From Turneriella parva (GTDB lineage Bacteria > Spirochaetota > Leptospiria > Turneriellales > Turneriellaceae), in contig DYPL01000011.1 in NCBI GenBank assembly GCA_020719945.1, positions 16,138 to 52,281 on the forward strand: a DNA stretch of 36,144 nt. Reading direction: 5' to 3'. Under the pieces are notes generated by a model. That model was not told the DNA's origin. It was given only the letters and a program-made list of their open reading frames with translations, and did no database searches. This document shows positions 4,420 through 7,326 of the stretch, one piece after another. A program made the translations under genes and the position numbers. Each line of letters starts with the position of its first letter. The stretch's first letter is position 1.

Positions 4420-4788
4420 ATGAACCCAAATCAGCATTACCAGCCGGGTGCACCCGGGAACCCTCTTTGCTTATTTTGTTCCGGCTATGAAGACAAAATA
4501 GAGCCCGAAAAAAATTTTCCTCCTTTAGAAGACATTGTAGCCATGGAAAAGCACGACATCATTATGGAAATATCGTCTGCGATTGGCGACGAACCCGAGA
4601 TGATATCCGTAGCGGAGAGGATTTTCCAGCGAATTCGCTATCGAGTAACCGAGTTTGTGCTGAAAAGAGAGTACAATCGGTATGACGGTATCTCTGTACC
4701 GCTGGCTATATGGCTTGAAAAAAAGCAGAATCCGGAATCTCTCGAAAAATTAAACAATATTATCGATAATTATCTGGAAAAGCATTAA
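4420..4788 (+). CDS. small acidic protein with N-terminal CxxC, function unknown
   Basis: 122 residues, ATG preceded by AGAGGAAATTTTAG, a reasonable ribosome site. The N-terminus is polar and contains LCLFCSGYED, a CxxC pair that could bind metal. The rest is predicted helical and charged, including DIIMEISSAIGDEPEMIS and a C-terminal LEKLNNIIDNYLEKH. There is no signal peptide or membrane segment, so it is probably cytoplasmic. It stands alone between the divergent minus-strand run and the flagellin genes. Proximity to flagellins is its only functional hint and is weak. No family was recognised. Confidence 0.7.
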   Translation: MNPNQHYQPGAPGNPLCLFCSGYEDKIEPEKNFPPLEDIVAMEKHDIIMEISSAIGDEPEMISVAERIFQRIRYRVTEFVLKREYNRYDGISVPLAIWLEKKQNPESLEKLNNIIDNYLEKH

Positions 4789-4966: not shown

Positions 4967-5321
4967 CCATCAAAGGATGGTTTGCTGCTGTTGTATCAGG
5001 TTGTTGAAGAAGTTCATTTAAGGACTTCTTCAATCCGCAAAATACGGGCGATGCCCGTCCTCTTGCGGCTCATGGATTCCCGAAGGGGAACCGTCGATTG
5101 ACGGGAAACCTACAGCGAGGCCATGTTTTGAATAATTTCACAACATGGCCCGGTACACGGATGTACCGACATTTTGCGCAGAAAAATGGAGGGAAACAGC
5201 GGGCTTTGCCCGGGTTTCGCGAGTAGAAAAAGTCCAAGAGGGACTTTTTCTACCTCATTCAGAATGCAATCGATCGGTTCTCCTGCGGGATCCTCGTGAT
5301 CTTTCGGAGAAGGAGTGTACC
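4967..5321 (+). promoter_or_regulatory. highly structured flaB leader with multiple GGA hairpins (candidate CsrA-responsive RNA)
   Basis: Successive inverted repeats fill this gene-free stretch. The main stems are CCATC/GATGG (4967-4980), a 10-bp stem 5004-5013/5024-5033, CCGCAA/TTGCGG enclosing ACGGGC/GCCCGT (5035-5068), CCGTC/GACGG (5091-5104), a 9-bp stem 5119-5127/5142-5150, a 7-bp stem 5151-5157/5162-5168, GAAAC/GTTTC enclosing CGGGC/GCCCG (5193-5218), and a perfect 13-bp stem 5223-5235/5241-5253. Eight ANGGA motifs occur, at 4973, 5020, 5072, 5157, 5186, 5190, 5239 and 5310; the last overlaps the Shine-Dalgarno site. TTCTCC (5278-5283) can pair with GGAGAA (5306-5311) just before that site. 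CsrA/RsmA binds ANGGA in hairpin loops and at ribosome sites. That this leader is bound by CsrA is inference. No good promoter was identified, so the RNA 5' end is unknown. Confidence 0.6.
5151..5168 (+). promoter_or_regulatory. near-consensus CsrA/RsmA binding hairpin in the flaB leader
   Basis: CGGTACA and TGTACCG form a perfect 7-bp stem closing a CGGA tetraloop. Positions 5153-5164 read GTACACGGATGT, matching 11 of 12 positions of the known CsrA SELEX consensus RUACARGGAUGU; the only mismatch is the C at 5158. The GGA sits in the loop, as in authentic sites. Binding itself is inferred. Confidence 0.6.
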
Positions 5322-6152
5322 ATGAGAATCAACAACAACATAAGCTCCGTCAATGCCAACCGCACTTTGAAGTTTCGCGAATGGGAAATGGATAAGTCGA
5401 TGGCAAAGCTGGCATCGGGTGAACGGATCACCCGGTCCGGTGATGATCCATCTGGACTGGCCGTATCTGAAAAGATGCGCACACAGGTCAATGGCCTGCG
5501 CCAGGCGGAACGGAACACAGAAGACGGAATGAGCTTTATCCAGACAGCAGATGGTTATCTGGCGCAGACCGCTGATATTATGCAGCGCGTTCGCACCCTG
5601 TCTGTCCAGGCGGCAAACGGAATTTATTCCGGCCAGGACCGACAGCTCATGCAGGTAGAAGTTTCGCAGCTCGTCGATGAACTCGACCGCGTTGCTTCGC
5701 AGGCAGAATTTAACCGTTTTAAGCTGTTTCAGGGCGACTATGCCAGAAATTCCCGCGCAGGTTCCATGTGGTTCCATATGGGGCCCAACCAGTTCCAGCG
5801 CGAGCGCGCCTATGTTCAAACAATGACAGCGGCCGCTTTTGGACTCAAGGGAATTTCTTTAACGAGCGTTGCAAAAGCCAATGATACCATTGGTCTTGTA
5901 GACTCTGCTCTGGAAGTTCTCATGAAACAGCGCGCCGATTTAGGTGCTTATGCGAATCGTCTGGAGACGAGTGCAAAGGGGCTCATGTCTGCCTACGAGA
6001 ATGTGATGGCTGCTGAAAGCCGCATTCGCGATGCCGACATGGCAGAAGAAATGGTCAGTTTTACCAGAAATCAGATTCTGGAATCAGCTGCTGTTTCCAT
6101 GCTTGCCCAGGCTAATGTGCGTGGTACCGCTGCCCTCCGGTTGCTAGAGTAA
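5322..6152 (+). CDS. flaB: FlaB-type periplasmic flagellar filament core protein (first copy)
   Basis: 276 residues of the spirochaete FlaB flagellin family, which builds the core of the periplasmic flagellar filament. The N-terminal D0/D1 region ([16 protein letters not shown], then [22 protein letters not shown]) and the C-terminal region ([20 protein letters not shown], ending [15 protein letters not shown]) are canonical. There is no variable D2/D3 insert, as expected for FlaB, and no signal peptide. The ATG at 5322 was chosen because it has a strong GGAGAAGGAG ribosome site and starts exactly at the family N-terminus. The frame is open back to an ATG at 5145, but that stretch is the structured leader. 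A second FlaB gene follows about 340 bases downstream. Confidence 0.95.
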
Positions 6153-6215
6153 AGTTAGATGTTCTTTGACATATAGACGTAAATTTCATGGTAGGCATCT
6201 TTTGCTTGAGTTCTT

Positions 6216-6283
6216 TTTGATAACAAATTTGTATAATTCGCTTCCCCACGAAGCCGGGGAAGCGAAAAATCATTTGTATCAAA
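6216..6283 (+). other. long imperfect stem-loop between the two flagellin genes
   Basis: The core is a perfect 9-bp stem, CGCTTCCCC (6239-6247) with GGGGAAGCG (6256-6264). Outer arms TTTGATAACAAAT (6216-6228) and ATTTGTATCAAA (6272-6283) pair with one bulge. It lies just after flaB1 and could stabilise the message end or attenuate read-through. No T-tract follows, so it is not a standard intrinsic terminator. A perfect TATAAT (6232-6237) lies inside the left arm. Confidence 0.55.
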
Positions 6284-6380
6284 GGATGAGGAAAAATATA
6301 GACATTGCTTTGTCGTTTTTCTGTTTTTTCATAACGTTTCAAAAGTTACGTTACTCCAGTTGTTTGTAATGATTTTCCGG

Positions 6381-6492
6381 TGGGGCCATCCGGCGATGCG
6401 ACCCGCCGGATGGCCCCATTGGGCCACATGTCACCGGGAGGACATGAGGGCGTAAGGACGCGCCCGAAACAAACAACCCAAGGAGGGAGAAG
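6381..6492 (+). promoter_or_regulatory. structured leader of the second flaB gene with GGA hairpins
   Basis: It begins with a perfect 15-bp stem, 6381-6395 with 6404-6418, closing the loop ATGCGACC. Next is CATGTC/GACATG (6427-6446), whose loop contains GGGAG. The third hairpin is GGGCG/CGCCC (6448-6465), with AAGGA at 6454-6458 in the loop. The ribosome site AAGGAGG (6480-6486) itself contains AAGGA. A loop AAGGA plus an AAGGA over the Shine-Dalgarno site matches the two-site arrangement known for CsrA-repressed messages. The function is inferred. Confidence 0.5.
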
Positions 6493-7326
6493 ATGCAAAT
6501 TAACCACAACCTTTCCGCCCTGTTCGTCAATCGCCAGCTCGACCGGGCCCAAGTGGACATGTCCAGGTCCATCGAAAAACTCGCGTCTGGCGAAAAGATT
6601 AACCGCGCAGGAGACGACGCAACCAATCTGGCAGTTTCTGAGAAAATGCGCACGCAGATTCGCGGACTCGCCCAGGCAGAACAAAATGCCTTAAACGGTA
6701 TTTCGTTTATTCAGGTTGCAGAGGGAAATATGGGGCAGGTAAACGATATCCTGCAGAGAATCCGCGAGCTGTCTGTTCAGGCTGCTAACGGCATATACTC
6801 TCAGGCGGACCGTTTACAGATTCAGGTGGAGGTATCTCAGTTAATCGAGGAAGTCGATCGCATTTCCACGACGGCTGAATTCAACCGCATGAAGCTGCTC
6901 ACAGGAGACTTTGCCAGAAATTCTGCCAAGGGCTCCATTTTCTTTCACGTCGGTCCCAACAAGGATCAGAGAATCCGGGCTTTCATTCAAACAATGAATT
7001 CCGGTTCTTTTAACCTCGCAGGGGATATTGCGACAGTGGGAGCGGCTAACCTGATGATAGGGACAGTCGATGACGCAATAGACCATCTCACCCGGCAGCG
7101 CGCCGATTTAGGAGCGTATTACAACCGGATTGAGACGACTGTCGAGGCATTGCGAACCAGTTACGAAAACATGGTCGCAGCAGATTCAAGACTGCGCGAT
7201 ACAGATATGGCGGAAGAATTGCTGGAATTTACGCGCAGCCAAATGCAGATGCAGAGTGGTACGGCGATGCTTGCCCAGGCTAATTTATCCAGCCGGCTGG
7301 TGATTCAGCTGCTCGAAAATGCGTAA
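6493..7326 (+). CDS. flaB: FlaB-type periplasmic flagellar filament core protein (second copy)
   Basis: 277 residues, clearly a paralogue of the upstream flagellin. It starts MQINHNLSALFVNRQLDRA, close to classical spirochaete FlaB N-termini, and ends TAMLAQANLSSRLVIQLLENA. Conserved D1 segments include SGEKINRAGDDATNLAVSEK and [16 protein letters not shown]. It has no variable D2/D3 domain and no signal peptide, because flagellins are exported by the flagellar type III apparatus. The ATG has an excellent AAGGAGG ribosome site. Filaments of spirochaetes often contain several FlaB isoforms, and tandem copies with separate leaders suggest independent tuning. An intrinsic terminator follows at once. 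Confidence 0.96.
   Translation: MQINHNLSALFVNRQLDRAQVDMSRSIEKLASGEKINRAGDDATNLAVSEKMRTQIRGLAQAEQNALNGISFIQVAEGNMGQVNDILQRIRELSVQAANGIYSQADRLQIQVEVSQLIEEVDRISTTAEFNRMKLLTGDFARNSAKGSIFFHVGPNKDQRIRAFIQTMNSGSFNLAGDIATVGAANLMIGTVDDAIDHLTRQRADLGAYYNRIETTVEALRTSYENMVAADSRLRDTDMAEELLEFTRSQMQMQSGTAMLAQANLSSRLVIQLLENA

Follow-up and report, generated by a model that had tools for sequence, protein, structure and literature searches.

This locus raises the question of how a bacterium sets the translation of a second flagellin gene that follows a first across a long untranslated spacer. Spirochaete filaments contain several flagellins, the control of which is described as largely post-transcriptional and is only partly known. 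The window examined here, the whole stretch of 36,144 nucleotides from Turneriella parva, carries such a tandem: flaB1 (5322–6152), with an ATG start that follows AAGGAGTGTACC, and flaB2 (6493–7326), both matching Pfam Flagellin_N and Flagellin_C and separated by a spacer of 340 nt. Both genes, and all RNA elements described between them, lie on the forward strand. The genome encodes four flagellins, two in the window and two on another contig, as well as nusB and a consecutive flgL–fliW–csrA group in which csrA lies directly behind flgL and fliW. Elsewhere in the window, positions 4420–4788 encode a 122-amino-acid protein without a Pfam match; its C-terminus resembles that of the gene upstream of flaB2 in loci L101 and L102, and it may be a conserved flagellin neighbor. 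On the reverse strand, 1837–2694 encodes a protein in which three nearly identical repeats (TEEKLDNLTGVVASLA..QKR) precede a DUF3782-like part.

A folded domain in front of flaB2

A first-pass annotation of this DNA had described four elements in front of flaB2, and each was located: a perfect 15-bp stem (6381–6395/6404–6418, a 15-nt inverted repeat with 100% complementarity), the pair CATGTC/GACATG (6427–6432/6441–6446), a GC-rich hairpin with AAGGA in its loop (GGGCGU-AAGGAC-GCGCCC, 6448–6465), and AAGGAGG as the ribosome site (6480–6486), a Shine–Dalgarno sequence whose context is kept in flaB2 leaders. In the predicted fold these elements together make up a single multi-branched domain, whose 9-bp closing stem had been missed: P1 (GTTGTTTGT/ACAAACAAC; 5′ arm 6359–6367, pair probability 0.99; 3′ arm 6469–6477, likewise assigned from pair probabilities). 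Within it, the 15-bp stem extends to a hairpin of 20 pairs, P2 (6376–6395/6404–6423, pair probability 0.98), which is followed by P3 (6427–6446), whose loop ACCGGGAG contains GGA, and by P4 (6448–6465), which presents a CsrA-like GGA hexaloop; P2, P3 and P4 were assigned from the fold and pair probabilities, together with the inverted repeat for P2 and a comparison of hexaloops for P4. Also missed was the occupation of the ribosome site itself: GGAG at 6482–6485 is predicted to pair with CUCC at 6354–6357, just outside P1 (pair probability 0.89).

The stability of the domain exceeds that expected from its composition. The fold of 6355–6500 has an energy of −72 kcal/mol, compared with −47.7 ± 3.7 in 200 dinucleotide shuffles (z −6.6; 0/200 as good), and strong folding is general in the flaB2 class, with z < −2 in 18/19 flaB2 leaders versus 2/57 random pieces of the window. 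None of the Rfam 15 covariance models matched the window or the flagellin leaders of relatives at the gathering score. The possibility of a mobile or repeated hairpin was rejected, the only full-length copy found elsewhere being the orthologous leader of a sister species. In that sister (L006), about 82 nt are gone from the middle of the spacer, while the 3′ domain is kept whole, along with the two upstream elements considered below. An 11-bp hairpin in mid-spacer (TTCGCTTCCCC/GGGGAAGCGAA, 6237–6266) lies in a stretch that differs or is missing in this sister.

GGA hexaloops and the CsrA–FliW reading

The first-pass annotation had read the hairpins as CsrA-type control, with a logic common to both flagellin leaders: an upstream GGA hairpin plus a GGA at the ribosome site. 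Only part of this reading is borne out. Each leader does have one upstream GGA hairpin. That of flaB1, GGUAC-ACGGAU-GUACC (5151–5168), is close to the published consensus RUACARGGAUGU, and that of flaB2 is P4, which lies 37 nt before the start codon. However, the flaB1 ribosome site has no hexaloop hairpin, and that of the flaB2 class has none that covaries. In a comparison with relatives, as the annotation had proposed, the window's one sister species carries the AAGGAC hairpin unchanged, but a hexaloop of this kind is missing from the majority of flaB2 leaders in the order, and few flaB2 leaders other than those of the window and its sister have a P4-like GGA hexaloop.

Enrichment was assessed in flagellin leaders from the order and from related groups, by counting NNGGAN hexaloops with stems of 5 bp or more upstream of the start and comparing GGA with other triplets at the same place. 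GGA hexaloops occur in 5/19 leaders of the flaB2 class (mean of 0.67 for other triplets, with TGA likewise reaching 5) and in 16/69 leaders of other flagellins (mean of 1.76). At the ribosome site the two groups part. Among the other flagellin paralogs, a Shine–Dalgarno hexaloop hairpin covaries: 32/49 have a stem of 4 bp or more, whereas swapping the arms gives 8.4 on average and 16 at most; examples are GUUUC-AAGGAG-GAAAC, GACA-AAGGAG-UGUC and GAUUC-AAGGAG-GAAUC. In the flaB2 class the corresponding count is 4/16, which is not above that for swapped arms (mean 2.8, maximum 4).

These results bear on an explanation in which flaB2 is a CsrA–FliW target like Bacillus hag: CsrA, bridging from the AAGGAC hairpin to the ribosome site, would repress flaB2 translation until removed by FliW. 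The flgL–fliW–csrA group, the position of P4 and the enrichment of GGA hexaloops all speak for it, as does the finding in gel shifts that Leptospira CsrA binds flaB leaders at GGA hexaloops, binding and effect being known there for flaB3 and flaB4 (PMC8668096). Compared with the CsrA–FliW flagellin leaders of Bacillus hag and of Borrelia and Leptospira flaB, the window's flaB2 leader shares the upstream GGA hexaloop, the GGA at the ribosome site and the fliW–csrA genes behind flgL; it differs in that its ribosome site lacks a conserved hexaloop hairpin and in having two additional elements, a boxA and an anti-start strand. The bridging explanation would make the boxA unimportant and leaves the conservation of both elements unaccounted for; given also the lack of a covarying ribosome-site hexaloop, unlike in other flagellins, and the absence of the upstream hexaloop from most flaB2 leaders of the order, we consider it unlikely. 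The flagellins of this group are likely to be under CsrA control, as in Leptospira, but the flaB2 ribosome site is not of that type. Conservation at the flaB2 locus lies in the boxA and in the pairing of the start region, two features that the first-pass annotation had not seen.

Two further pairings were observed in the flaB1 leader. The segment GGUACAC (5152–5158), from the 5′ arm of its CsrA-like hairpin, can alternatively pair with GUGUACC (5315–5321), adjoining the flaB1 start codon, and a shortened leader folds in this way; the alternative pairing is a possible switch. Additionally, GTTGTTGAAGAAGTTCAT (5000–5017) and the flaB1 start ATGAGAATCAACAACAAC (5322–5339) show 72% complementarity, and thus flaB1 may have an anti-start strand of its own.

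A boxA behind the first flagellin

Seven nucleotides past the flaB1 stop codon lies the sequence TGTTCTTTGACA (6160–6171), which is identical at 12/12 positions to the 16S-leader boxA of L050, L051, L148 and L150, representing four operons in three genomes of the same family; the comparison was made with same-family genomes, the window's own assembly being without a 16S. The genome has six matches to TGYTCTTTGANA, and the sole one outside a reading frame is the spacer boxA. The position is conserved. In a first set of tandem loci, a boxA lies 5–34 nt after the preceding flagellin stop in 9/9 cases, the window included (the match in L008 is weaker), and among 46 genomes searched from a second class of spirochaetes (that of G053) it lies 10–48 nt after the stop in 28/28 readable spacers, with 0 on the antisense strand; the loci of both sets are related and partly overlapping, and the two counts do not amount to 37 independent events. 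The sequence of the element also changes in parallel with that of rRNA: GACA occurs in the window's clade and GAAAAC in the second class, where the boxA reads GGTTCTTTGAAAAC both in flagellin spacers and in 16S leaders, each variant being that of the clade's own 16S-leader boxA. Such parallel running of rRNA and flagellin variants across clades is not readily explained otherwise.

The element is associated with flaB2 rather than with flagellin leaders at large: a boxA score of at least 9.4 within 500 nt was found for 10/20 flaB2 leaders versus 2/65 other flagellin leaders, with 0 antisense matches in both groups, and the flaB1 leader of the window has no good boxA match. Where flaB2 stands alone, the boxA is kept in L101 and L102, and no match was found in Turneriella-like genomes and genus g8. 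A boxA match near a contig end was rejected as an rRNA leader, as it falls inside a reading frame. No such element was reported in the open-access, full-text literature searched for boxA together with flagellin, spirochaetes or Leptospira, and flagellin goes unmentioned in the text of a survey of mRNA boxA elements in gammaproteobacteria (PMC5725501).

Two other identities for these nucleotides were weighed. In one, TTCTTTG is an anti-Shine–Dalgarno sequence, not a boxA, and pairs with CAAGGAG of flaB2 to close the spacer. UUCUUUG does complement CAAGGAG in the window and CAAGGGA in the second class, and RNAalifold pairs them; however, both sides are nearly invariant, without covariation, and in L164, L176, L101, L102 and L022 the ribosome site differs while the element is unchanged. 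Conservation moreover runs past the pairing (ACA or AAAAC), just as in rRNA leaders that have no such ribosome site, and the folds favor the strand behind boxA as the partner of the start region, making this identity highly improbable. In the other, TTGACA is the −35 element of a flaB2 promoter and the hairpins merely stabilize a separate flaB2 mRNA. In the window TTGACA is a perfect −35 hexamer, and 5′ hairpins are able to stabilize mRNA. However, the promoter scan returned no sigma-70-like site at TTGACA, a suitably spaced −10 is not conserved, the boxA core is retained in the variants TTGTTA and TTGGCA although these weaken the −35, and the conserved core starts upstream of the hexamer; this is the least probable of the explanations considered here. 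Scanning the spacer for a sigma-70 promoter or an intrinsic terminator gave nothing above the expectation from shuffles. The place of the boxA just behind the flaB1 stop, together with the lack of a promoter downstream, would put it within transcribed RNA.

A predicted anti-start strand and a proposed model for flaB2

Turning to the sequence behind the boxA, the minimum-energy fold and a duplex test identify an anti-start strand at 6189–6205, of which 6195–6203 is predicted to pair with 6488–6496, 6189–6192 with 6503–6506, and 6205 with 6486. The flaB2 start codon is thereby paired with a probability of 0.99, its partner being the strand 6195–6203. In the duplex test, the 60 nt behind boxA were paired with flaB2 start regions in either matched or permuted combinations. 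In the second class, matched combinations scored −444.9 against −364.3 ± 10.9 for permuted ones (0/2000 permutations as good), and in the window's group −148.8 against −134.5 ± 7.3 (p 0.029), a weaker result in the same direction from an order that at present offers about eight distinct leaders. Against shuffles, the strand gave a modest p of 0.04 in the window and 0.003 in the sister species, and several relatives taken singly were not significant. In the sister, both the boxA and this strand survive the mid-spacer loss.

The tandem spacer of the second class (L154–L182) is itself a conserved RNA, roughly 290 nt long, in which 36/57 predicted pairs show compensatory change. It has no Rfam match, and R1, a covariance model of its core, scored strongly at a single site in each of the four second-class genomes searched; on this comparative evidence it is a candidate new RNA family. 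R1 matched neither the window nor any other part of its genome, and homology of the window hairpins to this RNA was accordingly rejected, the shared CGGGAGGrCAT being within chance by estimate. Separately, almost every second-class locus (L154–L182) carries in the leader of its first flagellin a boxA-like element, 190–245 nt upstream of the start, and GGCAAGGAAGCC and ACAAAGGAGUGU, which follow this element, resemble two CsrA sites.

Together, the boxA and the anti-start strand suggest that flaB2 is subject to flagellin control beyond the proposed CsrA site. Both have counterparts in rRNA leaders. There, too, boxA, the NusB–NusE site, heads a long untranslated folded RNA and adjoins the 5′ arm of a long-range helix, with precedents for tethering of the upstream arm near boxA (PMC4807359) and for the leader–trailer helix (PMC10250234). 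The flaB2 boxA differs in lying between two protein-coding flagellin genes, and its 3′ arm is a translation start, not an rRNA trailer. An untranslated mRNA leader outside rRNA is likewise the setting of the suhB boxA of Enterobacteriaceae, a repressing element found no more than about 50 nt from the start (PMC5725501). The flaB2 boxA, by comparison, follows a gene and is separated from its start codon by about 320 nt, which include the anti-start strand and the folded domain. In E. coli, the suhB boxA promotes Rho termination through translational repression, the opposite direction to that envisaged below (PMC5725501). Nus factors could act in the suhB manner here as well, repressing flaB2 translation and thereby promoting Rho termination in the spacer, and the E. 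coli example establishes that an mRNA boxA can do so; however, the distance to the start codon far exceeds the limit of 50 nt for the suhB-type elements that were searched, and the start would already be closed by the intervening anti-start strand, so that we regard this as improbable.

We lean, with some caution, towards a reading in which the transcript of the flaB1–flaB2 spacer forms a flaB2 leader that is headed by boxA and folds over a long range, with the boxA loaded by Nus factors, the flaB2 start closed and its opening regulated. Polymerase leaving flaB1 would continue into the spacer, where the newly transcribed boxA would load NusB and S10 (NusE), as in rRNA. The Nus factors on boxA would then hold the anti-start strand at RNA polymerase and carry transcription through the spacer. 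Once the 3′ end of the domain emerges, pairing of 6195–6203 with 6488–6496 and of CUCC with GGAG, a fold predicted in the window and matched by co-variation in the second class, would cause flaB2 translation to start closed. Finally, and as the weakest step, opening would be regulated, possibly by CsrA–FliW at P3/P4 or by the supply of Nus factors and S10. Because the order of the spacer is that of rRNA (boxA, 5′ arm, folded domain, 3′ arm), we favor tethering and Rho protection with a closed flaB2 start; Nus binding, co-transcription with flaB1 and the direction of regulation are what we infer from this arrangement.

More tentatively, and with less confidence than in the reading as a whole, the rRNA boxA–Nus machinery could serve as an RNA chaperone in the flagellin operon; the polymerase would carry the 5′ strand across some 300 nt and close the flaB2 start with it, making flagellin output responsive to NusB, S10 and SuhB. 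If true, this would extend to an mRNA the guidance of a long-range helix by a Nus complex, a role until now argued for rRNA, and would tie flagellin output to factors that serve ribosome building (NusB, S10 and SuhB). As the boxA is conserved over many families and two spirochaete classes, the link between Nus factors and flagellin is directly testable.
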